Positions 4,995-55,579 of a stretch of 64,000 nt of DNA are shown piece after piece; the stretch's first letter is position 1; each line of letters opens with the position of its first letter. This DNA is from Ricinus communis. Its lineage: Eukaryota > Streptophyta > Magnoliopsida > Malpighiales > Euphorbiaceae. The notes beneath the pieces were generated by a model. The model did no database searches, was not told where the DNA came from, and was given only the letters and a program-made list of their open reading frames with translations. The stretch is taken from assembly GCF_019578655.1 (NCBI RefSeq), contig NC_063264.1, forward strand, positions 26,621,688-26,685,687, in the 5' to 3' direction. The position numbers and the translations under genes are program-made.

Positions 4995-5100
4995 TTACCA
5001 AAGCTACTTTTAACTTTTCTTAATCCCCGAGCTTCAGACAAGAAGCACAAATCTACCAAGGATTTCTGTTTGTTAGCATGAGGATTTTAAAATCCACTCG

Positions 5101-5967
5101 TTACCTTCTCCTTTGCTTTCGAGTGGGAAACAATTCAAAACCAAATGGAATCAACTAAATCATTATTTCCTCATGTCAACAAAATCATTTTCATCCTCGG
5201 CATGACAAGTTTTAATAATGGTGAAATTAAGTACTTTAAAATTTTGATCCCAATAGTAACGAAGAACTGTACTAAAGTTGGTCTTCTGAAATGGGAAATC
5301 AAACTGTTGTAATCATTAAAAAGAAAAAAAAAAAGAAAGAAAAGGAAGTGTTTGTCATAGGGCAGATGCAGTGGAAACCATTTCTAATTATATTGTTTTA
5401 GGCTTAAAAGGCTCTTTTTTTCCATTAATTATGTCTCAAAAAAGAATAAACATTTAACTGCAATGATACCTCCACGACAGTATCAGTATGAAACTACCAA
5501 ACACTAGATAAAAGCTTGCATAGGCAAAGTATTGATAAAGGTCGAATGTTAAAGGTAAAATTGAAAGGATTGAACTTGGATTGATGAAGAGCCCTTCCAA
5601 AAATTGTTAGAGAATAATTAACTATTTTATCAGGTATATACACAAAGGAAACCTGTACCTATACCAGAGTTAACTATTAGAGTATAATTGAATGCAAGAA
5701 CCAGTTCACTAACTTACCAAAGATAAGCAACAGTTCCTCAGAACTAACTAAGCAAATTGCCAGTGTTCAAATGCAAGAGATCTCAAATGGACATAAGTAT
5801 AGCTGTTCTTGGTATTGTGCACTAAGCTAAGATTTCAAGAGTGACTTACCTTGACTTTAAGATGAAGGAAATGAACATCTGTACGAATTTTAAATGAAGA
5901 AAAGAAAAAGGAGCACTGCACATAACAACCAAAATATATTGGACTATGTCATTGCTATAAAAATCTT
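5101..5967. other. U1 upstream region, no gene seen
   Basis: Conserved in all three copies (25305-26171 and 45238-46104). It includes an A-rich run near 5320 and no sustained reading frame. The stretch CCCTTCCAAAAATTG near 5590 resembles the Sm-site region of a minus-strand U5 gene, but nothing else of U5 is present. Confidence 0.5.
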
Positions 5968-6020
5968 ATCCCACACGGAATAAGTATAACGGAGAAGTAT
6001 TAAACATGGAATATAAATAG
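5968..6020 (+). promoter_or_regulatory. U1 snRNA promoter, USE + TATA (copy A)
   Basis: The upstream sequence element ATCCCACACGG (5968-5978) is followed 33 nt later by TATAAATAG (6012-6020), which lies 32 bp before the RNA start. In plants this spacing of USE and TATA specifies RNA polymerase II; Pol III genes have about 10 bp less. Confidence 0.85.
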
Positions 6021-6043
6021 AAAGCAAATAGCATCAAGCAAAC

Positions 6044-6206
6044 ATACTTACCTGGACGGGGTCAATGGGCGATCAAGAAGGTTCATGGCCTAGGTAGTTG
6101 GTCTCCATTGCACTTAGGAGATGCACCTGCCTAAGGTCTCCCCAAGTGGGAGAGCCTACGTCATAATTTGTGATAGTGGGGGCCTGCGTTCGCGCGGCCC
6201 CTTTCC
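6044..6206 (+). ncRNA. U1 spliceosomal snRNA (copy A)
   Basis: U1 pairs with the 5' splice site at the start of spliceosome assembly. The 5' end ATACTTACCTG is the invariant splice-site recognition sequence. Stem-loop I follows with loop GATCAAGAAGG (U1-70K site), then stem-loop II with ATTGCACTT (U1A site), stem-loop III CTCCCCAAGTGGGAG, an Sm site ATAATTTGTG (6163-6172) and the GC-rich terminal hairpin GGGGCCTGCG/CGCGGCCCC. The length of about 163 nt fits plant U1. The 3' end is set by the hairpin; a weak 3'-box-like ATTCTAA follows. It is well supported by its promoter and looks functional. Confidence 0.95.
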
Positions 6207-6476
6207 ATGCCAATTCTAAACTTGCCACTAATTCCGGGAAACCTATGAAACTAAAGACATGTCTGGTGAAAAATTTAAAGCAGCTTCATTTTGAGGGATG
6301 AGTCCTATCAACGTGTATAAGTAGTCCTTTCAGAACTGTGAATTACTGATCCTACTGATATTGAATTTACAATAGCTTGTGACTGGGTTGAGCTACTAAG
6401 CCCTGCAAAATCTAGCTGATACTCTTACTAGCAGACTCTTACTGCAACTGGTGTTGTTTAGTCAGACAGTTAGAAG
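6207..6476. other. U1 downstream spacer
   Basis: Spacer between U1 and the duplicated U2 promoter segment, preserved in all three units. No gene or RNA motif recognised beyond the weak U1 3' element. Confidence 0.5.
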
Positions 6477-6662
6477 AATCATTCCTTAATTTCTTTTCTT
6501 TTGTACACGGATGGAATATCCAAATTCGCACAGTAGAAACAAAGCTGAACATATTGGCAAGATATATTCTCTTTTAACATAACAATCTTAAAAACCAGCA
6601 ATTCAATTGCTACAAAGAGCCAATGTTTCAATGTTTATACAGTCTTGGAACACTAACATTTC

Positions 6663-6673
6663 AGCCCACATCG
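6663..6673 (+). promoter_or_regulatory. Orphan U2 USE
   Basis: AGCCCACATCG differs from the plant USE consensus at one position, yet no TATA box or U2 RNA follows because the LTR starts 20 bp downstream. It is a promoter remnant. Confidence 0.65.
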
Positions 6674-6692
6674 ACGAGGCAAAAGAAGAATG

Positions 6693-6940
6693 TGTTGGTA
6701 AGCTAGAACTGAAAGTATTTTTAAGAATTTGAATAAATCATATTGTTCATTGAATAGCTAAGCCCTATTTATACAGCAAGATTTTAAAATTAAAATTTAG
6801 AAAAATCTGCTACAAATCAAGAAAATCTAAACTGATTATTGACTACCTTATTTGCCTTAAAATAAGGAATGATATTTTATTTGCCTAAAGACTAAGAACA
6901 AAATATAACTAATGCAGCTTCAAAAATCATAAAGTTAACA
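6693..6940 (-). mobile_element. Ty1/copia LTR (copy A)
   Basis: The 248-bp segment begins TGTTGGTAAGC and ends GTTAACA. It is the same sequence that adjoins the copia pol 3' end at 55930-56176, which fixes its identity and minus orientation. It lies between a U2 USE and where the TATA box should be. The 30 bp to its right are copia internal DNA, so it is not a simple solo LTR. Confidence 0.8.
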
Positions 6941-7158
6941 CTCCTTGATGTTGGAGCTGCAAACTCCAAGAATCATTCCTTAATTTCTTTTCTTGTGCTT
7001 GATTTGTTCACGGATCCAAATTCGCACAGTAGAAACAAAGCTGAACATATTGGCAAGATATATTCTCTTTTAACATAACAATCTTAAAAACCAGCAATTC
7101 AATTGCTACAAGGAGCCAATGTTTCAATGTTTATACAGTCTTCTAACACTAACATTTC

Positions 7159-7210
7159 AGCCCACATCAACGAAGCAAAAGAAGAATGTGAGAGAAAGGG
7201 ATAATAAAAG
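7159..7210 (+). promoter_or_regulatory. Plus-strand U2 promoter (copy A)
   Basis: The USE-like AGCCCACATCA (7159-7169) is followed by TAATAAAAG (7202-7210), 33 bp before the RNA start. The TATA element is weaker than in the minus-strand array (TATAAAAGG). Confidence 0.65.
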
Positions 7211-7234
7211 GGAAGTGAAGGTATTGAGAAAAGC

Positions 7235-7404
7235 ATACCTTTCTCGGCTTTTTGGCTAAGATCAAGTGTAGTATCTGTTCTTATCAGTTTAATATCTAAT
7301 ATGTGGATCATTGATTCACATGATATTAAATTAAATTTTTTAATGGGAGGGTTAACTACAGTGGCTTGCTACCGAAATCCTCATGCATGGGCTGGCGCAA
7401 CCCA
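7235..7404 (+). ncRNA. U2 snRNA variant with shortened 3' domain (copy A)
   Basis: The first 60 nt match U2 closely: ATACCTTTCTCGG, stem-loop I, and AAGTGTAGTATCTGTTC, the sequence that pairs with U6 and the intron branch site. Stem-loop IIb (GTGGATCATTGATTCAC) is a good hairpin. Departures: CTAAT weakens stem IIa; the Sm region reads AAATTTTTTAATGGG; stem-loop III is altered; and stem-loop IV is cut to CATGCATGGGCTGGCGC. The total of about 170 nt compares with about 195 for plant U2. It has its own promoter, so it could be transcribed, but loss of stem-loop IV (the U2A'/U2B'' site) suggests a pseudogene or unstable variant. Confidence 0.75.
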
Positions 7405-7507
7405 ACCAAATCTACCGTTTAATTTTGTCATACTTCTGAATTTATAAATATTTAATTGATTAAAATTATACCTCTTATAAAATTGATTATATTTATTATT
7501 CATGCAC

Positions 7508-7659
7508 GACCTAGTAAAATAAAGAATATATTTAATTAGTTAATTGTCAACTGCTCTTTTGATGACAAGCTTCCTCATCACAAGACCTAGTAAAATAAAG
7601 AATATATTTCATTAGTTAATTGTCAACTGCTCTTTCGATGACAAGCTTCCTGATCACAA
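7508..7659. repeat. 76-bp tandem duplication (copy A)
   Basis: Two copies of a segment starting GACCTAGTAAAATAAAG. Copy C also has two (47645-47796), whereas copy B has one (27711 onward). Confidence 0.85.
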
Positions 7660-8604
7660 GGTTTCCGATAACACCAATTTCGTGGTAATTGGACTCTTTT
7701 GAAAAATTAATGGTTGAAAATTGTTCGGTGTATTTTGAGATGATCGGGGATTAGATCAAAGAATTATATGCTGGACTCATTCTTTAAGCATCATTTTGAG
7801 TTCATGGACACATTCAGATTGTCTATCGGACTTCGACGGCTAGAGGTTAGCCAACTGCCTTATCTCACATCTGATTAAATTATTTAGCCTAATAATTTTA
7901 AAATTGTTGATTAAAAATACATTGGTATTAATTTGAGAAAAATGATTTAGTGTATCTATGAATGTATCTTTGGAAAATTAAAATGTATTATTAAATTTAG
8001 TAAAGTTAAGCGATATGATAATCTTACAAAGACTCTATTACTAGTTGCTTTACACATATTTAAAAAGTGAAGTTAATTAACTAGAAAATAAGATTTAGCG
8101 GAACTTAAAATCTTAGCCAGAAATCTGCAATAATAAATTAATTATATATAATTGAGATTTTAATTAAGTGATTAATCAATAATTAAATTCGATTATGTTA
8201 TTAGTAAATAATTGACATAATTACAGGAAGAATATTATAATTTTTAGAATAAATAAATATAGTAAAATTTACACTTAAGTGATTAGAAAATAAATAGAAT
8301 TAATATTAGCTATATGATAAATAATATTGTTGGCATGAAATAAGTAGATCGGATGTGATGCTTGATTTGTGGGGTAGATCAATTTTTATTTTTATACTCA
8401 GGGTTAATTAAAATAGTCGGCAAATAAATATTAATGTTAGAAAATAAATAAATAGGAGTAATAATTAGTATTAATCTAGTTATTAATCGGTATAGAGGAA
8501 AATAATTACAATGGAATTTCATGTGCTGGAAAATATTTCGACAAGCTAAAAATAATTATTAGACAATTGTGAATGATGAATGATTTTGTTCATGATAGAT
8601 TAAA

Positions 8605-8795
8605 TTCAAGAAACTTTGGAGGTCTCGGATGAAAAAATATTATGAGATACATTATGTTTACTTTCTTACAGGTTGTGGACTCCTTTTACTAGGGAAGAAA
8701 TTCAAGAAACTTTGGAGGTCTCGGATGAAAAAATATTATGAGATACATTATGTTTACTTTCTTACAGGTTGTGGACTCCTTTTACTAGGGAAGCT
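8605..8795. repeat. 96-bp tandem duplication, copy A only
   Basis: The segment from TTCAAGAAACTTTGGAGG to TTTTACTAGGGAAG occurs twice at 96-bp spacing. Copies B and C have a single version. The duplication creates a short open frame that is repetitive and not a gene. Confidence 0.88.
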
Positions 8796-10089
8796 AGTTC
8801 ATTTTATAGGGAGGTGCTGTCAGATTTTCGGTAGAATTAATTAATCAAAATGAAAAGGAAATTAATAGGATTAAGCTAAAATAAGATCAAAATTAAAAAG
8901 TTGGAATTAGATTTTAGATATAGGATAATAAACATTGGTTAAGAATAGAGATATATTTTACATTCCAGATGAGCTATAATTGGAGATGTTTATCGGTGAA
9001 TTTTAGGATTGTATGCCCGAATAGCAGTCTGGAGAAAATTAACAGAAAGTTTAGTGAAAGCATAGTGGGTCAGGTCCTACATACTAGGTGAGTGGATAAA
9101 CTAATAATATCGTATCTTTGAGTAGTATATTATTTATATTTATATTCTCATGAATTGTTGAAATGTTTCTTTTAAAAGTTAGTTAATTTAAATGTATTTG
9201 AACTTCATTATTTGGTATAGAAATTGAGAATAGAGAATTATATTTTTGGCTTTATTTTATATGTGATTATGATTTTACATAACTGGATAAATGATTATAT
9301 GACTTATGAGATCACACATTGGACATTAGATGTTATCAGAATATACTGTTTTTGTGACAACGCTTAGTATACACATTGTTTTTATGGCAAATGCTAGGAG
9401 GTGCTTTTTAGGGGCTTATTGTTTTCACGCGTATGACTAGAATTTGCGCTTTGGGCTGCATGGTTAAGATGTCTGAGCGCCCAAAGTTGCCAGGAATTAG
9501 TAAGGTACATCTATGAGTGTATACTGGTTTCTACTAAATTATTGATTTTATTTGATGTTATTTTACTTGACATGATCTCAGATCTTAAACTATTACCGAC
9601 ATTGTTTTGAAATGAGCTGAGAATATGTTGACCTCAGATGAGAAAATGTATTGCAGTTCCACATACATAATGAAGATATTATTTATCTATTTAGTTAATA
9701 AAATTTCATTTGTGCAGTTAGAATGCCTTTGATCAAATATTTATTTTCAAAATAATAGTAGTATTTTCTTTAGTAGAAAAGTATTTATAAATAGTATAAT
9801 AATATATATGTTTATTTCAATCATTGTCTGTTTCCATTTGTTATTTGTTTATCCTCTTTCTAAATTTGACTCACCCATTTTTCTACCCACCAGTGTTATA
9901 CATGATGTGTAAAAGTAGCAATACATTGTCGGTTAAGAGACATATATAATCAATATCATTATATCCTTAAATTTCGTTGTTAATTAGTTGATCAAGTAGC
10001 TCTTTCTAAGGTTTTATCCACCCAAAACACAAAACACTTGGTTGATCAAGATGCAAGAAACATAAAACAGTTCTTCTCTGTGGACAAAT

Positions 10090-10786
10090 ATGGCAATTGG
10101 GTTAAGATTTTGTCCACCTGAGAAAGAGTTGGTAACTTATTATCTATACATAAGGAACAATGGCAGATTTTCATCTATTGAAAACTAGCTTCCTATGAAA
10201 TATTGTGATTTCTACAGTAAAGAAGATCCTTGAAAAATATGGAAGAAGTCTGGTAGAGACAAGTTGAGCAATCATAAAGGTCTTTACTTCTTCACAATAT
10301 TAAAGAAGATAACCCCTGGTCGGGACCATAATATCAATCGCAGGATTGTCTCCACCGCAAGGACTTGGCATAGTGAGACTTTAGGTAATAGCTCAAAACT
10401 TCATCATAATGGGGTTACAACATATATGAAGCGATTTAATTATAAGAGCCCATCAAAATTAGACCAAGATCATTGTTGGAACATGCTTGAGTATAGTTTG
10501 GAGGGTGGAGAATCTCGTTATGCTCTTTGTCAACTCAAAAATAGCAGAGAACAATCTAGAAAAAAAGAAGAGACAAATTATTAATGATAACTTTGTGGAG
10601 GCTTTTAAACCTATAAAGAGCTTAAGGGTTAAGCAAGAATTGCTAAATTTGATTATAGAAAAGCCTAAGGCGGTTGATGTAGTACCTGCTATACAAGAAC
10701 AAGATGTAGGCAAAATGCATAAACGATACTATTATTATAACTATTATATCCATTTAATATCTCGACTCAATAATCACAAAAAATAA
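10090..10786 (+). pseudogene. NAC-domain transcription factor pseudogene (copy A)
   Basis: From ATG at 10090 the frame reads like NAC subdomain A (MAIGLRFCPPEKELVTYYL). A stop follows at 10186 (TAG), then subdomain B-like text, a TGA at 10231 where Trp would be expected, and then GLYFFT, matching the conserved YFF segment. FNYKSPSKLDQDHCWNMLEY resembles subdomain D, followed by YALCQLKNSRE (subdomain E). The frame ends at 10584, and a +1 shift continues it to about 10786 with an acidic Glu/Gln-rich tail. Two stops plus a frameshift, shared by all three copies, mean it was broken before the 20-kb unit amplified. NAC proteins are plant DNA-binding transcription factors; this copy should not make one. 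Confidence 0.7.
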
Positions 10787-12408
10787 TACCCTAGTTAACC
10801 AACAATAAATCATGTAACATTATTTTTTATTATTATGTAATAATATGGCAGCCAGATTCTCCCACTAACTACTACATCACCTCCTATTTGGACACAACTA
10901 ATCCTGGTTAGTTGTTGAACATTCTCTCAGCTCCCCTACCTTGAACTCTTACCTTGCAATTGCATTTGGGAATTAAGAATTTTAAGCTTACTAGGATTAA
11001 TTATGTACAGGTGAGTGGTGACGTGGAAGCTAGAGAAATAATCTAGCGACCACATCAACACAAAAATGGTTGGAACTATGAGATGTAATTTAGTCATAAA
11101 ATTGTAATTTTTTTTTTCAATCGTTCAATGATGTGTCTAATTTAGTACTCACAAGTACACGAACCGTTCTTTTCGTAAAGCGGTAAATTCACCTCGATGT
11201 CAATCTCTCAAGAAATTATGATGTCACTTATTATATAGTCTAATTATCAACATAAAATAATAAAAATAAATTTAAACACTCTAAACTAGTATTCTCAGAA
11301 AGTAGGATATTCATAAAATAAATAAAATAAATTATAAAGTGAATATGCAATGCAAAAGCAAATGCTTGTAATTTAAAACTATGTGCTAAAGGCAGTATTT
11401 AGCCTAGCCATTTACTTAGTAATCTCTTTATTTCACTTTAAGCCTATATTTAATGAATGAGATAGTGATGTGCCTTTTTCTTTAACCACTCAAACAATAA
11501 TGTAACTAAAGTTTTTTTTATCAACATAGATTGAAACAAAGATGGTGTCTCTAATACACAATATAAGTCTATCTAATATATAAGACTAGAGGTATCATTA
11601 TCTCCATCAAATATTATCCTACAATAACTCTTAATATAAATCCTAATAATAATACAATGATTAAAACGCCCTCCTTGGGCCTTTTATAATTCGGCTAGCA
11701 TAGCAAATAGCAGATCCACACGTCTTAATCTTGGGCCTTTGAAATCAGCAGTTCTATTTAAGCTCATTTTTTGAGTATTTTTCTCCATATTTTCCTCTTT
11801 TGGTTAATATTATAAGAAAATAGACAATTAAGCTTACATGAGGTAAAAGTATATATTATTCTCATATTATATATATAAAACATACTATTAAAGCACTAAA
11901 ACATCCTAAATATAAATACATAATTTGGACCTATCATTCAGCTTTAGTTTTGATTGCAATTTAATCACCTTACAAATAAGAAATCAATATGTCATATTTT
12001 TTCTAATTCTAGTAGCTTTTGAAAAATTTATCCCATAAAACTAAGGGTGAGCAAAAAAATCAAATCGATCAGAATTGAATATCAGTAGCTTCGATCAATA
12101 GAAACTAAATTTTAAAAATATTTAATAAACAAAACATATAAAGTTTAAATTTCAATGTGAAACTTAAAAAGTTTCAGTTTGACAATATTTATGTCCTTAA
12201 ATAAGTCATTTTAAGCTCACACACAGGAATTAAGAAATATAGAATATTAAATTGTCTCAATTATAATAAAAATAGTTTTATGGGTAAAATATCAATTTAT
12301 TAAAATATATAAAATTTCTATAAAATTCTTTTCACTTTAGTGAATTACTTTTTTCCTACTTCATTAATACTTTCTCTTACATTGAATAACGATAAAACTA
12401 GAAAAAAA

Positions 12409-12477
12409 GTAATTTCCTTTCCAAAAGAAAAGAAGTAACTAATTTAGTTACTTCTTTTCTTTTCGAAAGGAAATTAC
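12409..12477. repeat. 34-bp-arm near-perfect palindrome
   Basis: The arms GTAATTTCCTTTCC...AAGTAACTAA (12409-12442) and TTAGTTACTTC...GGAAATTAC (12444-12477) are inverted copies separated by one base, with a few mismatches. The homologous site at 21789-21822 has only one arm, so the second arm arose by inverted duplication. Confidence 0.85.
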
Positions 12478-12850
12478 CATTAGTTGCTGAAAATAACATT
12501 TAATTTAAAATAATATTTTTTAAAACTATATTTATTCAGAATAGAGAAAGTAATATACCATAATTTATAAAGAAAATGAATAGTTAAGTAGTTTAATTAA
12601 ATTCGTCAAATTTTAGTTTAAAAGTAAATTAAAATATGAAAATAAGAGAACAAAATTTCTTTAAATGGAAATTATCATGTTTGTCATTCATAAAATAAAA
12701 CAAGTACATCTTGACATATAATTATATCTAATTAAATTAACACTAATCAGATAAATAAATGGATAAGGGTTTATATGAATCATATAAATTCAAGTACCCA
12801 TATAAACTTTAAATAGGTCATATATAAATAAATGAGTCATATATAAATAC

Positions 12851-12891
12851 TGGAATCCTCGTTGCATTATTCCATGGGCCTGATGCACCCC
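12851..12891 (+). pseudogene. U2 snRNA 3'-end relic (copy A, L1)
   Basis: TGGAATCCTCGTTGCATTAT followed by TCCATGGGCCTGATGCACCC corresponds to the end of U2 stem-loop III joined to stem-loop IV and the 3' tail. The downstream flank matches that of the other U2 relics. No 5' portion is present. Confidence 0.6.
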
Positions 12892-13169
12892 AACCAAATA
12901 TGCTATTAACTTTTCTTGATTCTGAAGAGGCAAGCTGCACAAATCTACTAAAGATTTCTGTAAATTAGAATCAACATTTTAATATATAATGCTGCAGTGT
13001 TACCTTCTTGCTTTCGTAACCAATCTTATGAAAAATGAAAGATCTAAGGATATATTAAAAGATAATTTTGTGATTCATCAACTAAATGATTGTTTTCTCA
13101 TTTCAATATAATTATTCTCAGGGGAAGCAAGTTCTTTAAAAAAAGGGCTTTGAAATAGGATATCATATT

Positions 13170-15234
13170 AGAAAAAGATGCAAATAAGCTCTTAACGTTT
13201 GAAACAAGGAGCAGATAAGCCCTTAATCTATTTTTTAGTACAAATAAATACACAAAAATATTTTACTGTATTCTAAACTCCCTGAATAGACGGAGACTCA
13301 ATTGCAAATAACATCGTTATCCAATAACATTTTCAATATCAATTCTAATTTTTAATTTTAAGAAACCTGTAACTTTGATTTTTTTAAAAAGAGAACATCA
13401 CCTTCACCACCTACGACCCTTCTCCATCATTATTATCCTCATCACCATCACAACTGAGAGCTTCAGCCAATAAAGGATCTCCATTACTATAGAGAAGACT
13501 ATGTGTAACTACCTGGAACCATATTACATGAGGTATTGTCTGCTTTGGCCCTCAAAGGCCTCACGATTTTATCCTTTTGGCGGGTTCGAGAACTTCTCAT
13601 GAGGTCTCCCATCTTGGAATTTTTCTGAACTAAGCACGTTTAATTTTGGATTTCCTACAACTCTACAGCCAAAAAGCTAAAAAGTGCCTCATGTGATTAT
13701 TTCAAACTCTTTACATATATGTTATCAACCATTCCTCGCTCATTTTAATGTATAATTCAATTCATTCATGTACCCCCGTACCTTAGAGTGTTGTCATCCT
13801 AGAAGCTTGCCAGTAGCCGCTCCTTATCCAGGCATCCTATCTTTGCCCCGGCGTCCACTTTCCGCCCTTATCGGACCGCTCTCTAAGTCAGGTTATCACA
13901 TGTCCACCAGCTTCTGCCTAGTTCATCCTCGAACCACACATCTATTAGAGGGGTCCTACTTTGATAGCATTTGTAATGACTCAGAACCAGATTACATGAG
14001 ATATTGTTCGCTTTGGCCCCCACTGGCCTCACGGTTTTGTCCTTTTAGCGGGTTCGAGAACTTCACAGGAGGTCCCCCATCCTGGAATTTCTTTGAACCA
14101 AGTACGTTTAACTTTGATGTTCCTACAACTCCATAGCCAAACAACCAAAAAGCACCTTATGTTATTAGTTCCAACTCTTTACATATATATTATCAACCAT
14201 TCCCCCCACCCCTCATTTCAATATGCAATTCGATTCATTTATGTACCCCCGCACCTTAGAGTGCTGCCATCCTAGAAGCCTGCCAATAGTTGCTCCTTGT
14301 CCAGACATCCTATCTTTGCCTCAGCATCCACTTTTCGCCCTCATCAGACCACTCTCTAGGTCAAGCTGTCACATGCCCACCAGCTTCTGCCTGGTTCGTT
14401 CTCGAACCACACATCTACTAGAGGGGTCTTGCTCTGATACCATTTGTAAAGTCCCGGAACCAGATCACACGAGATATTTTTCTCTTTGGTCCCCACTGGC
14501 CTCACGATTTTGTCCTTTGGTGGATTAGAGAACTTCACAAGAGTCCCCCCATCCTGGAATTTCTCTGAACCAATTTTGGAGTTCCTACAACTCCACATCC
14601 AAACAGCCAAAAAGTGCCTCATGTTATTAGTTCTAACTCTTTACATATATATTATCAACCATTCCCCGCCCCATTTCAATATGCAATTCAATTCATTCAT
14701 GTACCCCCGTACCTTAGAGTGCTGCCATTCTAAAAGCCTGCCAGTAGCCGCTCCTTATCCAGGCATCCTATCTTTGCCCCGGCGCCCACTACCCGTCCTC
14801 ATCGGACCACTCTCTAGGTCAGGCTGTCACACCATGTGCTTAATTTCTTTGAAAAATCAAATACCCAAAATTTACTATCCCAATTTTATTTCTTTTTCAT
14901 TATTAATATAGATATAATCTTTCAAATACCTAAAAGCAATCATCAATAATATCAAAGCAAACACTTTAAATCAATAATATCAAATTTGACAATTTATCTC
15001 ACATCTTCAAAATTTCATTTTGTAAACAAGAAGCATTAAAGCAGAGGAATTACAAGAAGAATAAGTGGAGGTGGATAAAGAAGCTAAAGGAGGAAGAAAA
15101 GATTAGTTGGAAGAATACCAAAAGTTGGAGCGTGAGGAAACAGTGCTGCTACCTTCATCATCGGCACAATCTCAATCTCAATTTCACTCCGAAATCTTAA
15201 TTTCCAATTCGTGGTTTTTGGTAATTAAATTCTT
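13170..15234. mobile_element. Truncated Mutator-like element hosting Cassandra (copy A)
   Basis: The left TIR (GAAAAAGATGCAAATAAG) and the interior match the complete element at 23062-24302. A Cassandra element is inserted at 13504-14831. Homology stops at 15234 (AATTAAATTCTT), where the U2 array flank begins, so the right TIR has been lost. About 190 bp of MULE interior are missing around the Cassandra insertion. Confidence 0.7.
13504..14831 (-). mobile_element. Cassandra-type TRIM, three LTRs in tandem (copy A)
   Basis: Three similar segments (13504-13900, 13972-14373, 14445-14831) run TGTAA...TGTCACA on the plus strand, i.e. TGTGACA...TTACA on the minus strand. The two spacers of about 70 bp each carry a primer-binding site complementary to initiator tRNA-Met; 14431-14444 reads AATGGTATCAGAGC on the minus strand. 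Each LTR holds a 5S rRNA-like stretch: minus-strand GTTAAACGTACTTGG resembles 5S box A, and AGGATGGGGGACCTCC resembles box C. TRIMs lack coding capacity and move in trans. LTR-spacer-LTR-spacer-LTR is the expected product of LTR-LTR recombination between two elements. The flanking CTATG/CCATG is a poor candidate target duplication. Confidence 0.88.
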
Positions 15235-15573
15235 TTTTCTTTCTTTTTTTACAAATATAATATCTATTTTATACTATTTTTACCATTGCTGTCACTTCTT
15301 TTTTTTTTTGTTTCTTTTTATTTCCTCCAACAATGAAGAAGGTGTGCTATTTTAATAAATAATCACTTGCTTCTTTTACTTTTTCACTAAAATGAGAAAT
15401 AATAAAAAATCTAATACATGGGCAAAAGAAAATAAATCGAATATCAAATAAAATTATGCAGTAACCAGTTGGAGAACTAGTCGTTTAAAGTATTGTCATA
15501 TCCAAACTCAATTAATTTCACTCACCTCTTTCAACTCAACTTATTGTCTCTTAGAACAAAAAAAAAGACATAA

Positions 15574-15588
15574 TTGAACTAGATTTGG
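15574..15588 (-). terminator. snRNA 3' box of U2-1
   Basis: On the minus strand CAAATCTAGTTCAA directly follows the RNA. This fits the plant snRNA 3'-end element CA(N)3-10AGTNNAA exactly. The same element follows the other minus-strand U2 copies. Confidence 0.75.
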
Positions 15589-44856: not shown

Positions 44857-45229
44857 TGCATCATATAACCTAGCAAATTTCTTGCATATTTGTACCATGA
44901 TTTACTAACCACATAACATGGAGTTAATTACGTGAAGAAAATAAAGAGTGCAACTATTTTTAAAATCTTCAACAAGAGTTTCCTCTATGATTGCAAGAAC
45001 TTATACTAAAGTCTATTATTTCTTCTTAAATAGTTTTAACTTATTTTCTTCTTCATCTCAAGTTCTGCTTCAAACCTATCATTCACTTTATTACGTGAGC
45101 TTTATCCTTGCCAAATCTACTTTTAACTTTCCTTAATCCTGGAGCTTCATCCTGGCTTCCGAGTTTAGACAAGAAGCACATTTCTACTGAGGATTTCTGT
45201 CTGTTAGCATCAGGATTTTAAAATAATGC
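44857..45229. other. Unit junction region B/C
   Basis: About 110 bp shorter than the A/B junction, with a short private sequence (TGATTTACTAACC) at the break. No gene. Confidence 0.5.
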
Positions 45230-46104
45230 TCCACTCGTTACCTTCTCCTTTGCTTTCGAGTGGGAAACAATTCAAAACCAAATGGAATCAACTAAATCAT
45301 TATTTCCTCATGTCAACAAAATCATTTTCATCCTCGGCATGACAAGTTTTAATAATGGTGAAATTAAGTACTTTAAAATTTTGATCCCAATAGTAACGAA
45401 GAACTGTACTAAAGTTGGTCTTCTGAAATGGGAAATCAAACTGTTGTAATCATTAAAAAGAAAAAAAAAAAGAAAGAACAGGAAATGTTTGTCATAGGGC
45501 AGATGCAGTGGAAACCATTTCTAATTATATTGTTTTAGGCTTAAAAGGCTCTTTTTTTCCATTAATTATGTCTCAAAAAAGAATAAACATTTAACTGCAA
45601 TGATACCTCCACGACAGTATCAGTATGAAACTACCAAACACTAGATAAAAGCTTGCATAGGCAAAGTATTGATAAAGGTCGAATGTTAAAGGTAAAATTG
45701 AAAGGATTGAACTTGGATTGATGAAGAGCCCTTCCAAAAATTGTTAGAGAATAATTAACTATTTTATCAGGTATATACACAAAGGAAACCTGTACCTATA
45801 CCAGAGTTAACTATTAGAGTATAATTGAATGCAAGAACCAGTTCACTAACTTACCAAAGATAAGCAACAGTTCCTCAGAACTAACTAAGCAAATTGCCAG
45901 TGTTCAAATGCAAGAGATATCAAATGGACATAAATATAGCTGTTCTTGGTATTGTGCACTAAGCTAAGATTTCAAGAGTGACTTACCTTGACTTTAAGAT
46001 GAAGGAAATGAACATCTGTACGAATTTTAAATGAAGAAAAGAAAATGGAGCACTGCACATAACAACCAAAATATATTGGACTATGTCATTGCTATAAAAA
46101 TCTT

Positions 46105-46157
46105 ATCCCACACGGAATAAGTATAACGGAGAAGTATTAAACATGGAATATAAATAG
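46105..46157 (+). promoter_or_regulatory. U1 promoter (copy C)
   Basis: ATCCCACACGG and TATAAATAG as in the other units. Confidence 0.85.
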
Positions 46158-46180
46158 AAAGCAAATAGCATCAAGCAAAC

Positions 46181-46343
46181 ATACTTACCTGGACGGGGTC
46201 AATGGGCGATCAAGAAAGTTCATGGCCTAGGTAGTTGGTCTCCATTGCACTTAGGAGATGCACCTGCCTAAGGTCTCCCCAAGTGGGAGAGCCTACGTCA
46301 TAATTTGTGATAGTGGGGGCCTGCGTTCGCGCGGCCCCTTTCC
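46181..46343 (+). ncRNA. U1 spliceosomal snRNA (copy C)
   Basis: Matches copy B, including the GAAAG loop variant. All other functional motifs are intact. Confidence 0.94.
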
Positions 46344-46613
46344 ATGCCAATTCTAAACTTGCCACTAACTCCGGGAAACCTATGAAACTAAAGACATGTC
46401 TGGTGAAAAATTTAAAGCAGCTTCATTTTGAGGGATGAGTCCTATCAACGTGTATAAGTAGTCCTTTCAGAACTGTGAATTACTGATCCTACTGATATTG
46501 AATTTACAATAGCTTGTGACTGGGTTGAGCTACTAAGCCCTGCAAAATCTAGCTGATACTCTTACTAGCAGACTCTTACTGCAACTGGTGTTGTTTAGTC
46601 AGACAGTTAGAAG

Positions 46614-47107
46614 AATCATTCCTTAATTTCTTTTCTTTTGTACACGGATGGAATATCCAAATTCGCACAGTAGAAACAAAGCTGAACATATTGGCAAGAT
46701 ATATTCTCTTTTAACATAACAATCTTAAAAACCAGCAATTCAATTGCTACAAAGAGCCAATGTTTCAATGTTTATACAGTCTTGGAACACTAACATTTCA
46801 GCCCACATCGACAAGGCAAAAGAAGAATGTGTTGGTAAGCTAGAACTGAAAGTATTTTTAAGAATTTGCATAAATCATATTGTTCAGTGAATAGCTAAGC
46901 CCTATTTATACAGCAAGATTTTAAAATTAAAATTCAGAAAAGTCTGCTACAAATCAAGAAAATCTAAACTGATTATTCACTACCTTATTTGCCTTAAAAT
47001 AAGGAATGATATTTTATTTGCCTAAAGACTAAGAACAAAATATAACTAATGCAGCTTCAAAAATCATAAAGTTAACACTCCTTGATGTTGGAGCTGCAAA
47101 CTCCAAG
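46614..47107. repeat. U2-promoter segment fused to copia LTR (copy C)
   Basis: Same arrangement as in A and B; the orphan USE-like element reads AGCCCACATCG. Confidence 0.78.
46830..47077 (-). mobile_element. Ty1/copia LTR (copy C)
   Basis: TGTTGGTAAGC...GTTAACA, near-identical to the other LTR copies. Confidence 0.8.
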
Positions 47108-47295
47108 AATCATTCCTTAATTTCTTTTCTTGTGCTTGATTTGTTCATGGATCTAAATTCGCACAGTAGAAACAAAGCTGAACATATTGGCAAGATATAT
47201 TCTCTTTTAACATAACAATCTTAAAAACCAGCAATTCAATTGCTACAAGGAGCCAATGTTTCAATGTTTATACAGTCTTCGAACACTAACATTTC

Positions 47296-47347
47296 AGCCC
47301 ACATCAACCAAGCAAAAGAAGAATGTGAGAGAAAGGGATAATAAAAG
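47296..47347 (+). promoter_or_regulatory. Plus-strand U2 promoter (copy C)
   Basis: AGCCCACATCA and TAATAAAAG, unchanged. Confidence 0.65.
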
Positions 47348-47371
47348 GGAAGTGAAGGTATTGAGAAAAGC

Positions 47372-47541
47372 ATACCTTTCTCGGCTTTTTGGCTAAGATC
47401 AAGTGTAGTATCTGTTCTTATCAGTTTAATATCTAATATGTGGATCATTGATTCACATGATATTAAATTAAATTTTTTAATGGGAGGGTTAACTACAGTG
47501 GCTTGCTACCGGAATCCTCATGCATGGGCTGGCGCAACCCA
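47372..47541 (+). ncRNA. U2 snRNA variant with shortened 3' domain (copy C)
   Basis: Same as copy A in the 5' domain, with CTACCGGAATCC in stem III as in copy B. Stem-loop IV is truncated in all three, so the loss is ancestral. Confidence 0.75.
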
Positions 47542-50131
47542 ACCAAATCTACCGTTTAATTTTGTCATACTTCGGAATTTATAAATATTTAATTGATTAA
47601 AATTATACCTCTTATAAAATTGATTATATTTATTATTCATGCACGACCTAGTAAAATAAAGAATATATTTAATTAGTTAATTGTCAACTGCACTTTCGAT
47701 GACAAGCTTCCTCATCACAAGACCTAGTAAAATAAAGAATATATTTAATTAGTTAATTGTCAACTGCTCTTTCGATGACAAGCTTTCTCATCACAAGCTT
47801 TCCGATAACACCAATTTCGTGGTAATTGGACTCTTTTGAAAAATTAATGGTTGAAAATTGTTCGGTGTATTTGGAGATGATCGGGGATTAGATCAGAGAA
47901 TTATATGTTGGACTCATTCTTTAAGCATCATTTTGAGTTCATGGACACATTCAGATTGTCTATCGGACTTCGACGGCTAGAGGTGAGCCAACTGCCTTAT
48001 CTCGCATCTGATTAAATTATTTAGCCTAATAATTTTAAAATTGTTGATTAAAAATACATTGGTATTAATTTGAGAAAAATGATTTAGTGTATCTATGAAT
48101 GTATCTTTGGAAAATTAAAATGTATTATTAAATTTAGTAAAGTTGAGCGATATGATAATCTTACAAAGACTCTATTACTAGTTGCTTTACACATATTTAA
48201 AAAGTGAAGTTAATTAACTAGAAAATAAGATTTAGCGGAACTTAAAATCTTAGCCAGAAATCTGCAATAATAAATTAATTATATATAATTGAGATTTTAA
48301 TTAAGTGATTAATCAATAATTAAATTCGATTATGTTATTAGTAAATAATTGACATAATTACAGAAGAATATTATAATTTTTTAGAATAAATAAATATAGT
48401 AAAATTTACACTTAAGTGATTAGAAAAATAAATAGAATTAATATTAGCTATATGATAAATAATATTGTTGGCATGAAATAAGTAGATCGGATGTGATGCT
48501 TGATTTGTGGGGTAGATCAATTTTTATTTTTATACTCAGGGTTAATTAAAATAGTCGGCAAATAAATATTAATGTTAGAAAATAAATAAATAGGAGTAAT
48601 AATTAGTATTAATCTAGTTATTAATCGGTATAGAGGAAAATAATTACAATGGAATTTCATGTGCTGGAAAATATTTAGACAAGCTAAAAATAATTATTAG
48701 ACAATTGTGAATGATGAATGATTTTGTTCATGATAGATTAAATTCAATAAACTTTGGAGGTCTCGGATGAAAAAATATTATGAGATACATTATGTTTACT
48801 TTCTTACAGGTTGTGGACTCCTTTTACTAGGGAAACTAGTTCATTTTATAGGGAGGTGCTGTCAGATTTTCGGTAGAATTAATTAATCAAAATGAAAAGG
48901 AAATTAATAGGATTAAGCTAAAATAAGATCAAAATTATAAAGTTAGAATTAGATTTTAGATATAGGATAATAAACATTGGTTAAGAATAGAGATATATTT
49001 TACATTCCAGATGAGCTATAATTGGAGATGTTTATCGGTGAATTTTAGGATTGTATGCTCGAATAGCAGTCTGGAGAAAATTAACAGAAAGTTTAGTGAA
49101 AGCATAGTGGGTCAGGCCCTACATACTAGGTGAGTGGATAAACTAATAATATCGTATCTTTGAGTAGTATATTATTTATATTTATATTCTCATGAATTAT
49201 TGAAATGTTTCTTTTAGAAGTTAGTTAATTTAAATGTATTTGAACTTCATTATTTGGTATAGAAATTGAGAATAGAGAATTATATTTTTGGCTTTATTTT
49301 ATATGTGATTATGATTTTACATAACTCGATAAATGATTATATGACTTATGAGATCACACATTGGACATTAGATGTTATCAAAATATACTGTCTTTGTGAC
49401 AACGCTTAGTATACACATTGTTTTTATGGCATATGCTAGGAGGTGCTTTTTAGGGGCTTATTGTTTGCACGCGTATGACTAGAATTTGCGCTTTGGGCTG
49501 CATGGTTAAGATGTCTGAGCGCCCAAAGTTGCCAGGAATTAGTAAGGTACATCTATGAGTGTATACTGGTTTCTACTAAATTATTGATTTTATTTGATGT
49601 TATTTTACTTGACATGATCTCGGATCTTAAACTATTACCGACATTGTTTTGAAATGAGCTGAGAATATGTTGACCTCAGATGAGAAAATGTATTGCAGTT
49701 CCACATACATAATGAAGAGATTATTTATCTATTTAGTTAATAAAATTTCATTTGTGCAGTTATAATGCCTTTGATCAAATATTTATTTTCAAAATAATAG
49801 TAGTATTTTCTTCAGTAGAAAAGTATTTATAAATAGTATAATAATATATATGTTTATTTCAATCATTGTCTGTTTCCATTTGTTATTTGTTTATCCTCTT
49901 TCTAAATTTGACTCACCCATTTTTCTACCCACCAGTGTTATACAGGATGTGTAAAAGTAGCAATACATTGTCGGTTAAGAGACATATATAATCAATATCA
50001 TTATATCCTTAAATTTCGTTGTTAATTAGTTGATCAAGTAGCTCTATCTAAGGTTTTATCCACCCAAAACACAAAACACTTGGTTGATCAAGATGCAAGA
50101 AACATAAAACAGTTCTTCTCCGTGGACAAAT
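47542..50131. repeat. Long AT-rich repeat, unassigned (copy C)
   Basis: Counterpart of 7405-10089. It has the 76-bp tandem duplication (47645-47796) but not the 96-bp one. Confidence 0.5.
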
Positions 50132-50828
50132 ATGGCAATTGCGTTAAGATTTTGTCCACCTGAGAAAGAGTTGGTAACTTATTATCTATACATAAGGAAC
50201 AATGGCAGATTTTCATCTATTGAAAACTAGCTTCCTATGAAATATTGTGATTTCTACAGTAAAGAAGATCCTTGAAAAATATGGAAGAAGTCTGGTAGAG
50301 ACAAGTTGAGCAATCATAAAGGTCTTTACTTCTTCACAATATTAAAGAAGATAACCCCTGGTCGGGACCATAATATCAATCGCAGGATTGTCTCCACCAC
50401 AAGGACTTGGCATAGTGAGACTTTAGGTAATAGCTCAAAACTTCATCATAATGGGGTTACAACATATATGAAGCGATTTAATTATAAGAGCCCATCAAAA
50501 TTAGACCAAGATCATTGTTGGAACATGCTTGAGTATAGTTTGGAGGGTGGAGAATCTCGTTATGCTCTTTGTCAACTCAAAAATAGCAGAGAACAATCTA
50601 GAAAAAAAGAAGAGACAAATTATTAATGATAACTTTGTGGAGGCTTTTAAACCTATAAAGAGCTTAAGGGTTGAGCAAGAATTGCTAAATTTGATTATAG
50701 AAAAGCCTAAGGCGGTTGATGTAGTACTTGCTATGCAAGAACAAGATATAGGCAAAATGCATAAACGATACTATTATTATAACTATTATATCCATTTAAT
50801 ATCTCGACTCAATAATCACAAAAAATAA
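50132..50828 (+). pseudogene. NAC-domain pseudogene (copy C)
   Basis: Same two stops and downstream frameshift as copy A. Minor substitutions (MAIAL at the start; AMQEQDIG near the end). Confidence 0.7.
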
Positions 50829-51129
50829 TACCCTAGTTAACCAACAATAAATCATGTAACATTATTTTTTATTATTATGTAATAATGTGGCAGCCAGATT
50901 CTCCCACTAACTACTACATCACCTCCTATTTGGACACAACTAATCCTGGTTAGTTGTTGAACATTCTCTCAGCTCCTCTACCTTGAACTCATACCTTGCA
51001 ATTGCACTTGGGAATTAAGATTTTTAAGCTTACTAGGATTAATTATGTACCGGTCAGTGGTGACGTGGAAGCTAGAGAAATAATCTAGCGACCACATCAA
51101 CACAAAAATGGTAGGAACTATGAGATGTA

Positions 51130-53019
51130 ATTTAGTCATAAAATTGTAATTTATTTTTTTTCAATCGTTCAATGATGTGTCTAATTTAGTACTCATAAGT
51201 GCACGAACCGTTCTTATCGTAAAGCGGTAAATTCACCTCGATGTCAATCTCTCAAAGAACTATGATGCCACTTATTATATAGTCTAATTATCAACATAAA
51301 ATAATAAAAATAAATTTAAATACTCTAAACTAGTATTCTCAGAAAGTAGGATATTCATAAAATAAATAAAATAAACTATAAAGTAAATATGCAATGCAAA
51401 AGCAAATGCTTGTAATTTAAAACTATGTGCTAAAGGTAGTATTTAGCCTAGCCATTTACTTAGTAATCTCTTTATTTCACTTTAAGCCTAGATTTAATGA
51501 ATGAGATAGTGATGTGTCTTTTTCTTTAACCACTCAAACAATAATATAACTAAAGTTTTTTTTATCAACATAGATTGAAACAAAGATGGTGTCTCTAATA
51601 CACAATATAAGTCTATCTAATATATAAGACTAGAGGTATCATTATCTCCATCAAATATTATCCTACAATAACTCTTAATATAAATTCTAATAATAATACA
51701 ATGACTAAAACGCCCTCCTTGGGCCTTTTATAATTCGGCTAGCATAGCAAATAGCAGATCCACACGTCTTAATCTTGGGCCTTTGAAATCAGCAGTTCTA
51801 TTTAAGCTCATTTTTTGAGTATTTTTCTCCATATTTTCCTCTTTTGGCTAATATTATAAGAAAATAGACAATTAAGTTTACATGAGGTAAAAGTATATAT
51901 TATTTTCATATTATATATATAAAACATATTATTAAAGCACTAAAACATCCTAAATATAAATACATAATTTGGACCTATCATTCAGCTTTAGTTTTGATTG
52001 CAATTTAGTCACCTTACAAATAAGAAATTAATATGTCATATTTTTTCTAATTCTAGTAGTTTTTGAAAAATTTATCCCATAAAACTAAGGATGAGCAAAA
52101 AAATCAAATCGATCAGAATTGAATATCAGTAGCTTCGATCAATAGAAACTAAATTTTAAAAATATTTAATAAACAAAACATATAAAGTTTAAATTTCAAT
52201 GTGAAACTTAAAAAGTTTCAGTTTGACAATATTTATGTCCTTAAATAAGTCATTTTAAGCTCACACACAGGAATTAAGAAATATAGAATATTAAATTGTC
52301 TCAATTATAATAAAAATAGTTTTATGGGTAAAATATCAATTTATTAAAATATATAAAATTTCTATAAAATTCTTTTCACTTTAGTGAATTACTTTTTTCC
52401 TACTTCATTAATACTTTCTCTTACATTGAATAGTTAAGTAGTTTAATTAAATTCGTCAAATTTTAGTTTAAAAGTAAATTAAAATATGAAAAAAAGAGAA
52501 CAAAACTTCTTTAAATGGAAATTATCATGTTTGTCATTCATAAAATAAAACAAGTACATCTTGACATATAATTATATCTAATTAAATTAACACTAATCAG
52601 ATAAATAAATGGATAAGGGTTTATATGAATTATATAAATTCAAGTACCCATATAAACTTTAAATAGGTCATATATAAATAAATGAGTCATATATAAATAC
52701 TGGAATCCTCGTTGCATTATTCCATGGGCCTGATGCACCCCAACCAAATATGCTATTAACTTTTCTTGATTCTGAAGAGGCAAGCTGCACAAATCTACTA
52801 AAGATTTCTGTAAATTAGAATCAACATTTTAATATATAATGCTGCAGTGTTACCTTCTTGCTCTCGTAACCAATCTTATGAAAAATGAAAGATCTAAGGA
52901 TATATTAAAAGATAATTTTGTGATTCATCAACTAAATGATTGTTTTCTCATTTCAATATAATTATTCTCAAGGGAAGCAAGTTCTTTAAAAAAAGGGCTT
53001 TGAAATAGGATATCATATT
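51130..53019. repeat. AT-rich block L1 (copy C), with deletion
   Basis: Counterpart of 11093-13169 but about 194 bp shorter. The deletion junction TGAATA lies at 52427-52432, and the palindrome of A and B is gone. Confidence 0.75.
52701..52741 (+). pseudogene. U2 snRNA 3'-end relic (copy C)
   Basis: Identical by eye to 12851-12891. Confidence 0.6.
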
Positions 53020-55084
53020 CGAAAAAGATGCAAATAAGCTCTTAACGTTTGAAGCAAGGAGCAGATAAGCCCTTAATCTATTTTTTAGTGCAAATAAATA
53101 CATAAAAATATTTTACTGTATTCTAAACTCCCTGAATAGACGGAGACTCAATTGCAAATAACATCGTTATCCAATAACATTTTCAAAATCAATTCTAATT
53201 TTTAATTTTAAGAAACCTGTAACTTTGATTTTTTTAAAAAGAGAACATCACCTTCACCACCTACGACCCTTCTCCACCATTATTATCCTCATCACCATCA
53301 CAACTGAGAGCTTCAGCCAATAAAGGATCTCCATTACTATAGAGAAGACTATGTGTAACTACCTGGAACCATATTACATGAGGTATTGTCTGCTTTGGCC
53401 CTCAAAGGCCTCACGATTTTGTCCTTTTGGCGGGTTCGAGAACTTCTCAAGAGGTCTCCCATCTTGAAATTTTTCTGAACTAAGCACGTTTAATTTTGGA
53501 GTTCCTACAACTCTACAGCCAAACAACCAAAAAGTGCCTCATGTGATTATTTCAAACTCTTTACATATATGTTATCAACCATTCCTCGCTCGATTTTAAT
53601 GTGTAATTCGATTCATTCATGTATCCCCGTACCTTAGAGTGTTGTCATCCTAGAAACTTGCCAGTAGCCGCTCCTTATCCAGGCATCCTATCTTTGCCCC
53701 GGCGTCCACTTCCCGCCCTTATCGGACCGCTCTCTAAGTCAGGTTGTCACATGTCCACCAGCTTCTGCCTAGTTCATCCTCGAACCACACATCTACTAGA
53801 GGGGTCCTACTTTGATACCATTTGTAATGACCCAGAACCAGATCACATGAGATATTGTTCGCTTTGGCTCCCACTGGCCTCACGGTTTTATCCTTTCAGC
53901 GGGTTCGAGAACTTCACAGGAGGTCCCCCATCCTGGAATTTCTTTGAACCAAGTACGTTTAACTTTGAAGTTCCTACAACTCCATAGCCAAATAACCAAA
54001 AAGCACCTCATGTTATTAGTTCCAACTCTTTACATATATGTTATCAACCATTCCCCCCACCCCTCATTTCAATATGCAATTCGATTCATTTATGTACCCC
54101 TGCACCTTAGAGTGCTGCCATCCTAGAAGCCTGCCAATAGTCACTCCTTGTCCAGACATCCTATCTTTGTCTCAGCATCCACTTTCCGCCCTCATTAGAC
54201 CACTCTTTAGGTCAAGCTGTCACATGCCCACCAGCTTCTGCCTGGTTCGTCCTCGAACCACACATCTACTAGAGTGGTCTTACTCTGATACCATTTGTAA
54301 CGTCTCGGAACCAGATCACACGAGATATTGTTCTCTTTGGTCCTCACTCGCCTCACGATTTTGTCCTTTGGTGGATTCGAGAACTTCACAAGAGGCCCCC
54401 CATCCTGGAATTTCTCTGAACCAATTTTGGAGTTCCTACAACTCCACATCCAAACAGCCAAAAAGCGCCTCATGTTATTAATTCTAACTCTTTACATATA
54501 TATTATCAATCATTCCCCGCCCCATTTCAATGTGCAATTTGATTCATTCATGTACCCCCGTACCTTAGAGTGCTGCCATTCTAAAAGCCTGCCAGTAGCC
54601 GCTCCTTATCCAGGCATCCTATCTTTGCCCCGGCGTCCACTTCCCGCCCTTATCGGACCGCTCTCTAGGTCAGGCTGTCACACCATGTGCTTAATTTCTT
54701 TGAAAAATCAAATACCCAAAATTTACTATCTCAAATTTATTTCTTTTTCATTATTAATATAGATATAATCTTTCAAATACCTAAAAGCAAACATCAATAA
54801 TATCAAAGCAAACACTTTAAATCAATAATATCAAATTTGACAATTTATCTCACATCTTCAAAATTTCATTTTGTAAACAAGAAGCATTAAAGCAGAGGAA
54901 TTACAAGAAGAATAAGTGGAAGTGGATAAAGAAGCTAAAGGAGGAAGAAAAGATTAGTTGGAAGAATACCAAAAGTTGGAGCGTGAGGAAATAGTGCTGC
55001 TACCTTCATCATCGGCACAATCTCGATCTCGATTTCACTCCGAAATCTTAATTTCCAATTCGTGATTTTTGGTAATTAAATTCT
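53020..55084. mobile_element. Truncated Mutator-like element hosting Cassandra (copy C)
   Basis: Left TIR GAAAAAGATGCAAATAAG, same loss of the right end at AATTAAATTCTT. Confidence 0.7.
53354..54682 (-). mobile_element. Cassandra-type TRIM, three LTRs (copy C)
   Basis: LTRs at 53354-53751, 53823-54224 and 54296-54682. The first spacer here keeps a better primer-binding complement (TTTGATACCATT) than in A and B (TTTGATAGCATT). Confidence 0.88.
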
Positions 55085-55441
55085 TTTTTCTTTCTTTTTT
55101 TACAAATATAATATCTATTTTATACTATTTTTACCATTCCTGTCACTTCTTTTTTTTTGTTTCTTTTTATTTCCTCCAACAATGAAGAAGGTGTGCTATT
55201 TTAATAAATAATCACTTGCTTCTTTTACTTTTTTCACTAAAATGAGAAATAATAAAAAATCTAATACATGGGTAAAAGAAAATAAATCGAATATCAAATA
55301 AAATTATGCAGTAACCAGTTGGAGAACTAGTCGTTTAAATTATTGTCATATCCAAACTCAATTAATTTCACTCACCTCTTTCAACTCAACTTATTGTCTC
55401 TTAGAACAAAAAAAAAGAGACATAATTGAACTAGATTTGGA

Positions 55442-55579
55442 GGGTTGCACCAGGCCTGTGCTATAGTGCAACACACAGGCAATGCTCAAGGACTCCAATA
55501 GCAAGCTATTGTGATGAGCCCTCTCCCTAAAAAAATAAATTTAATATCATGTGAATCAATGATTCACGTATCAGATATT
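55442..55579 (-). pseudogene. U2 snRNA truncated at the 5' side (copy C)
   Basis: The 3' two-thirds of array copy 1 is present (stem-loops IIb, III, IV, Sm site and 3' box). The sequence breaks at CAGATATT, where LTR sequence takes over. The promoter, stem-loop I and the branch-site pairing region are lost. Confidence 0.9.

Follow-up and report, generated by a model that had tools for sequence, protein, structure and literature searches.

A mixed U1-U2-U5 small nuclear RNA gene cluster amplified as a 20-kb repeat in Ricinus communis

Introduction

Linkage of different spliceosomal small nuclear RNA (snRNA) genes has been described before, and we compare here the closest described systems with a stretch of 64,000 nucleotides of Ricinus communis DNA (assembly GCF_019578655.1, contig NC_063264.1, C9:26621688-26685687; hereafter the window), in which U1, U2 and U5 genes form a cluster repeated as a unit of about 20 kb. 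For Arabidopsis, a published survey lists seven U1-U4 clusters, one U2-U5 cluster and, for U2 and for U5, one tandem duplication apiece, with the U1-U4 pairs spaced by 180–300 nt and the U2-U5 pair by <200 nt (PMC545797). The U2 gene of the latter cluster, U2-17, is described there as missing 20 nt and having a much shorter 3' stem-loop with its transcription signals kept, and doubts about its functionality were voiced by the authors (PMC545797). The likeness to R. communis lies in the close linkage of different RNA polymerase II (Pol II) snRNA genes, including U1-U4 linkage seen here on C7, C8 and C9, and in the shortening of U2-17, which parallels that of a short U2 variant found here (PMC545797).

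The Arabidopsis pairs (PMC545797) differ from the R. communis cluster, whose 20-kb unit joins genes of three snRNA types and is found as tandem and as inverted copies across ~92 kb. European hake resembles it in that U1 and U2 are linked and repeated enough for fluorescence in situ hybridisation (FISH), but this is a fish, the evidence comes from PCR and FISH, and a 20-kb unit is not among the features described in the available part of the report (PMC4696792). In Symbiodinium minutum, too, a single cluster brings together more than one type of spliceosomal snRNA; this organism is a dinoflagellate, however, its cluster holds all five snRNAs including U6, and the available part of the account describes no 20-kb tandem unit (PMC4083563). 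Mixed plant snRNA clusters are already known, and one so large and repeated is unusual. No description of a repeated U1-U2-U5 plant unit was found among the titles and abstract openings listed in literature searches covering few subscription journals.

Organisation of the cluster

A scan of the window with Rfam covariance models at their curated gathering thresholds gave 21 snRNA matches above threshold (3 U1, 14 U2 and 4 U5), and self-BLAST with unit alignment revealed a direct repeat of ~20 kb, arranged head to tail in about 2.5 plus-strand copies. These comprise two full units, A (4993..25172) and B (25173..45105), and a half unit, C (45106..55579), which ends within a U2 gene. Each full unit contains one U1 gene and one short U2 on the plus strand, five U2 genes on the minus strand and two opposed U5 genes. 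A preliminary description, made from the letters of the window, had proposed just such a mixed cluster, amplified about 2.5 times as a tandem unit with this gene set and these orientations; the Rfam matches and the self-comparison agree in bearing it out, with the U1, U2 and U5 loci scoring above the Rfam cut-offs. Of the limits it had placed at 5093 and 55579, the right one holds and the left edge moves to 4993, and the part that it described, correct in itself, proved to be only the middle of a ~92-kb cluster that continues on both sides, with inverted units on the right.

Whole units A and B differ by 266 substitutions in 19,886 sites (1.34%). Over the part common to all three units (A up to 15587), substitutions number 161/10,415 between A and B, 176/10,272 between A and C and 158/10,217 between B and C (1.55–1.71%), so that the units are roughly equidistant, with 85, 69 and 84 private differences in A, B and C, respectively. 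The window sequence is free of N, and the bases immediately before the A/B junction differ from those before the B/C junction.

The Rfam models, applied to 50 kb of left and 70 kb of right flank, added eight snRNA genes, one U5 on the left and two U1, three U2 and two U5 on the right, which extends the whole cluster from about C9:26619796 to 26712240 and its content to 5 U1, 17 U2 and 7 U5 genes; BLAST detected two additional partial U2 genes on the right, adjoining stretches that read N. The left end of the window (1..3348, plus strand) is an older partial unit with 82–88% identity to pieces of 20752-24504, and it runs ~2.2 kb beyond the window's left end, past the U5 gene. In the right flank lies an inverted unit, the large blocks of which are mostly 93–95% identical to unit B, followed farther right by a second inverted piece at ~90%. 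Substitutions number 258 in ~9,138 aligned bases (2.8%) in the inverted unit's five largest blocks and 634/12,915 (4.9%) in all 12 blocks, the latter a total that includes paralogous blocks.

U1, U2 and U5 genes

The three U1 genes of the window score far above the cut-off of model RF00003 (69.5 bits), with 143.9 bits in unit A (6044..6204), 142 bits in unit B (26248..26408) and 142 bits in unit C (46181..46341), all on the plus strand, and the unit B and unit C copies are identical. The two right-flank U1 genes score 141.7 and 136 bits. All five cluster U1 genes carry the 5' splice-site pairing sequence ACUUACCUG, and few Rfam model pairs are broken in the unit A copy. In an alignment of 18 of the 22 genome-wide U1 matches (omitting the third window copy, the two lowest-scoring matches and one C10 copy), 6 of 50 predicted pairs are changed on both sides with pairing kept, as counted without a shuffled control; among the changes is a CG to UA replacement in stem-loop II that is common to the four aligned cluster copies.

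The 14 U2 matches (model RF00004) fall into three short plus-strand copies, ten full-length minus-strand copies and one chimeric minus-strand copy, and the branch-site sequence GUAGUA is present in 13 of them, the chimeric copy being the one that lacks it. The full-length copies, five per full unit and numbered m1 to m5, span 15588-18921 in unit A and 35618-38952 in unit B. In unit A, m1 (15588..15783, 172.8 bits) has a promoter and no broken model pair; m2 (16374..16569, 167.2 bits) has a promoter and one broken pair in stem-loop IV; m3 (17159..17364, 141.9 bits) has a promoter, a 10-nt duplication in the stem-loop IIa region and no broken pair; m4 (17938..18134, 145.6 bits) has a promoter, base changes near the 5' end, an extra T in stem-loop I and no broken pair; and m5 (18725..18921, 140.7 bits) has two broken pairs and lacks the upstream sequence element (USE) and TATA box of snRNA promoters. 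Their counterparts in unit B are m1 (35618..35814, 162.9 bits), with a one-base insertion in stem-loop IV, m2 (36405..36600, 167.2 bits), m3 (37192..37397, 136.5 bits), m4 (37969..38165, 148 bits) and m5 (38756..38952, 140.7 bits), which again lacks USE and TATA. Copy-specific changes, among them the duplication in m3 and the missing promoter of m5, sit in matching slots of the two units. The chimeric copy (55440..55647, minus strand, 66.8 bits) is U2 only in its 3' part (55440-55579), the rest resembling a long terminal repeat (LTR). Among 11 aligned U2 3' parts, 3 of 29 predicted pairs are double-changed with pairing kept, again counted without a shuffled control.

Stem-loop IV, the binding site of U2A'/U2B'' in U2 snRNA, is present in all ten full-length minus-strand copies and missing from the three short plus-strand copies, which are 171 nt long, have a stem-loop IIa pair broken among others, and lie at 7235..7405 (unit A, 130.1 bits), 27439..27609 (unit B, 132.8 bits) and 47372..47542 (unit C, 129.9 bits). 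By these features they are U2-derived variants and not complete U2 genes. Stem-loop IV is missing from their relative in the inverted unit too; since that of the second inverted piece (right flank, L016:1257-1450) retains it, it was probably lost secondarily.

Each full unit has one U5 gene on either strand (model RF00020, cut-off 40 bits). In unit A these are at 19332..19449 (plus, 90.5 bits) and 24642..24760 (minus, 84.1 bits), both with USE and TATA, and in unit B at 39363..39480 (plus, 90.5 bits) and 44655..44773 (minus, 82.5 bits). All four score above the cut-off and contain the U5 loop I sequence CGCCUUUUACU. The nearest U2-U5 spacing in unit A is ~410 bp.

Promoters and termination signals

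Promoter anatomy was assessed against an 11-position USE and the Pol II spacing rule, the USE printed in PMC545797 being one letter shorter. A USE-like element (9–10 of 11 positions) followed after 32–36 bp by a TATA-like box (4–6 of 6 positions), the layout of Pol II snRNA genes, precedes 18 of the 21 window genes, the gap in the unit A U1 gene being 33 bp, and the earlier statement that most of the genes have USE/TATA promoters is thereby upheld; no such pair was found upstream of m5 of unit A, m5 of unit B or the chimeric U2. Of the 37 window sites reaching at least 9/11, 18 are on the same strand as an snRNA gene and 60–95 bp ahead of it, as are 11 of the 14 reaching 10/11. The published Pol II termination motif CAN3-10AGTNNAA (PMC545797) follows all 11 minus-strand U2 copies exactly and the three U1 and three short U2 copies at 6 of 7 positions.

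Nested divergence and constraint

The minus-strand U2 genes are carried on 785-bp sub-repeats that are ~89% alike within a unit (~11% apart), whereas corresponding stretches taken from different 20-kb units agree at ~98% (~2% apart); therefore, no homogenisation of whole sub-repeats has followed the duplication of the 20-kb block. With typical plant substitution rates, the split of A and B would be dated to ~0.5–1 million years ago. The U2 genes themselves are more alike than the sub-repeats that carry them, m2 to m5 of unit A being 94–98% identical to m1, and this higher likeness may reflect conversion or selection. Units A and B also share a tract of 1,758 sites (A 18606-20364) without substitution and with one indel column, which covers U2 m5 and a U5 gene and which, being unlikely under uniform divergence, may be a conversion tract. 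Apart from this 1.76-kb identical tract and the 94–98% likeness of the U2 genes in unit A, the near-identical units and homogenised neighbours of a concerted array are not what the comparison revealed. The human RNU2 locus is also a tandem snRNA repeat, but one of a single type, with many near-identical units under concerted evolution.

Substitutions between A and B are fewer in the intact-looking genes than outside genes: U1, m1, m2 and the two U5 genes together have 3/790, compared with 252/18,325 outside genes (one-sided p=0.006), and the difference persists when the short U2 is added (5/961, p=0.010) and when the promoterless m5 is added as well (5/1,158, p=0.002). The low divergence of intact-looking genes is only suggestive of constraint; m5 is unchanged between A and B because it lies inside the identical tract, so that a lack of changes in that tract does not speak for function.

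Mixed snRNA clusters elsewhere in the genome

Rfam searches of the 315.5-Mb genome for U1, U2 and U4, the counts of which are lower bounds, returned at least 22 U1 matches (5 in this C9 cluster), at least 26 U2 matches (25 above the cut-off, 13 in this cluster in a list that omits m1 and m2 of A and B, perhaps because parts read N in the searched copy) and at least 6 U4 matches (none in this cluster). Two further mixed clusters were recovered. The first (C7:23947001-23957000) contains U2, U5, U4, U1 and U5 within ~7 kb, and the second (C8:9371447-9405312, ~34 kb) contains six U1, four U5 and one U4 gene, with U2 matches at three places and a 2.1-kb U5+U1 block duplicated at 99.4% identity. The C7 and C8 clusters have spacer sequence in common; their likeness to the C9 unit is, at the sensitivity used, almost confined to the genes and nearby flanks. 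Three of the six U4 genes lie ≤5 kb from a U1 gene, the other three having no U1 nearby, and in a random placement control on ten assumed 31.5-Mb chromosomes none of 20,000 draws reached three U4 genes near U1. Among the 13 U2 matches outside the cluster, four lie ≤5 kb from a U1 match and one at 5.3 kb; the remaining eight are >100 kb from a U1 match or on a contig without one. The pair 5.3 kb apart is that of the U1 and U2 matches at C10:11574567 and 11579910.

Mixed Pol II snRNA clusters are therefore found repeatedly in this genome, alongside solitary genes. No U4 or U6 match was obtained at the gathering threshold in the window or the 120-kb flank, nor at E values up to 1 in the window, as the preliminary description had said, but the lack of U4 fails as a distinguishing trait, since C7 and C8 hold U1, U2, U4 and U5. 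These clusters indicate that mixing is not special to C9 and that U4 is absent just from this cluster. U6, a Pol III gene, is not expected in such a cluster.

Breaks, relics and other sequence content

Unit C breaks within its U2 gene at 55579 and is joined there to LTR-like and U2-upstream sequence (55576..56206, from sequence comparison) of the kind found between U1 and the short U2 of each unit, where in unit A an LTR-like piece with a duplicated U2 upstream region (6474..7190; LTR assigned by reading) resembles the sequence at the right break. The joined sequence adjoins a Ty1/copia retrotransposon remnant that borders the array (56171..58259, minus strand, edges taken from open frames), in which only 56994-57611 matches Pfam above the cut-off (PF07727, RVT_2, E=3.8e-73), and on the right a similar copia piece turns up again in inverted orientation (94%). 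On the left, the boundary of unit A falls at the 3' end of a U2 relic (4843..4995, plus strand), recognised by BLAST and by eye below the Rfam threshold, which consists of a promoter region, a 5' end and a 3' end (the 3' part read by eye), with the middle gone. A second relic, similar to a U2 3' part (1575..1730, plus strand, also below the Rfam threshold), has a local alignment score of 72, the best of 60 shuffles reaching 53. Given the positions of the breaks at U2 genes and the presence of the copia and LTR-like pieces, we suggest snRNA gene ends and transposon pieces as sites of exchange. Single-gene local alignments with 60 shuffles each, run for decayed U5 and U1 genes in 1-4990 and for snRNA genes in 55940-64000, gave only the U2 relic at ~1575-1730; a query of U5 plus its flanks beat its shuffles in 1-4990, the best stretch lying in a neighbouring repeat and not in the gene.

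A Pfam scan of ten open frames of the window gave one RVT_2 match above the cut-off, one NAM and one Pol_BBD match below it, and nothing for the other seven. A NAC-domain-like open-frame fragment occurs at 10234-10786 in A and 50276-50828 in C, the A copy being the one that matches NAM below the Pfam cut-off. Each unit also contains ~2.8 tandem copies of a 473-bp element (13516-14831 in A, 33545-34861 in B and 53354-54682 in C), one consensus of which starts with TGTAACGACCC, resembling the start of an LTR. Matches below the gathering score comprise a weak mir-3119 match (12408-12478 in A, 32439-32501 in B), a microRNA-family match (1113-1155) and a small nucleolar RNA match (57797-57859). A partial large-subunit ribosomal RNA match (RF02543, 173.9 bits, L011:2657-3218) lies ~27 kb left of the window.

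Origin and maintenance of the cluster

We consider it probable that this is a Pol II-type snRNA cluster grown by nested duplication, in which intact copies add to the snRNA pool and others decay, because units and sub-repeats show nested divergence and have older inverted and partial neighbours. One U2 gene would first have been multiplied into the 785-bp sub-repeats, and the ~20-kb U1/U2/U5 block would later have given rise to copies in either orientation through unequal exchange and rearrangement, with repeated snRNA genes and retrotransposon pieces as the likely substrates. The plus-strand copies of the window, two full and one half, would then be the youngest products, with older or inverted copies on either side. 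To judge from their anatomy, individual genes are most likely transcribed separately by Pol II, each from its own USE and TATA box, and intact copies may feed a pool supplied by U1, U2 and U5 genes dispersed over the genome, other copies decaying by birth and death and selection presumably acting on some genes of the cluster.

Several observations weigh against this account. The array is known from one assembly, and the activity of its genes is read from their anatomy. The U5 genes (n=4) reach at best 4–5 of 7 positions of the termination motif, and their TATA-like box 4 of 6. Copies m3 and m4 look damaged in our judgement, yet both keep promoters and model pairs. The gene groups compared between A and B were picked after the data had been seen; all nine genes taken together give 14/1,561 (p=0.066), m3, m4 and m5 with 9/600 do not stand apart from spacer (p=0.72), and m5, although promoterless, shows 0/197 changes. 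The covariation counts for U1 and U2 have no shuffled control behind them, and the RNAalifold structure of U1 includes three 5'-end pairs that are absent from the Rfam model.

The best-surviving alternative is that the locus consists mostly of snRNA pseudogenes that were copied passively in transposon-driven duplication and contribute nothing to splicing. Such a graveyard would account for the one promoterless U2, the two suspiciously changed U2 copies and the short U2 without stem-loop IV of each unit, for the two U2 relics on the left and for the copia pieces at the breaks. We nevertheless regard it as unlikely, since U1, U2 m1 and m2 and the U5 genes retain promoters, model pairs are intact in m1 of unit A, broken once in m2 and seldom in U1, and the compensated stem-loop II change is common to the cluster's aligned U1 copies.

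A different and improbable idea is that the mixed clusters on C7, C8 and C9 are held together since closeness aids transcription or assembly, for example in a shared nuclear body, in which case the C9 cluster would be a recently co-amplified hub feeding U1, U2 and U5 variants jointly into splicing. Growth by nested duplication also accounts better for the repeat than would an assembly artefact in which haplotypes or repeat copies had been laid end to end. The 1.5–1.7% divergence could be heterozygosity, and a single assembly was available, but an artefact is very improbable in view of three near-equidistant copies, each with its own private differences, unlike two haplotypes, as well as an N-free window, unlike sequences before the A/B and B/C junctions, and older diverged and inverted neighbours indicative of duplication repeated over time.

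Least probable of all is an array resembling ribosomal DNA (rDNA), in which concerted evolution keeps tandem units in step and raises U1, U2 and U5 dosage together, since the tandem direct repeats, the substitution-free A/B tract over U2 m5 and U5 and the greater likeness of U2 genes than of whole sub-repeats within a unit are set against units 1.55–1.71% apart over their common part, neighbouring sub-repeats less alike than cross-unit stretches, the m3 duplication and promoterless m5 retained in equal slots of A and B, and further U1, U2 and U5 genes elsewhere in the genome. Both elements of this proposal had been raised in the preliminary description, and given the divergence pattern the combined reading is possible and weakly supported: rDNA-like homogenisation is at odds with sub-repeats ~89% and units ~98% alike and with the equidistance of A, B and C, and a joint rise in dosage with promoterless or suspiciously changed U2 copies and with the U1, U2 and U5 genes present elsewhere.

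Implications

The cluster indicates that mixed snRNA clusters of plants can far outgrow the gene pairs of Arabidopsis, three snRNA types having here been duplicated together in a single 20-kb block within which U2 was itself multiplied. The occurrence of other mixed clusters, two of them with U1, U2, U4 and U5, means that clustering itself, and not this array alone, needs explanation. As the copies differ, variant-specific RNA reads could show whether they are co-expressed and whether the balance of the splicing machinery is shifted.

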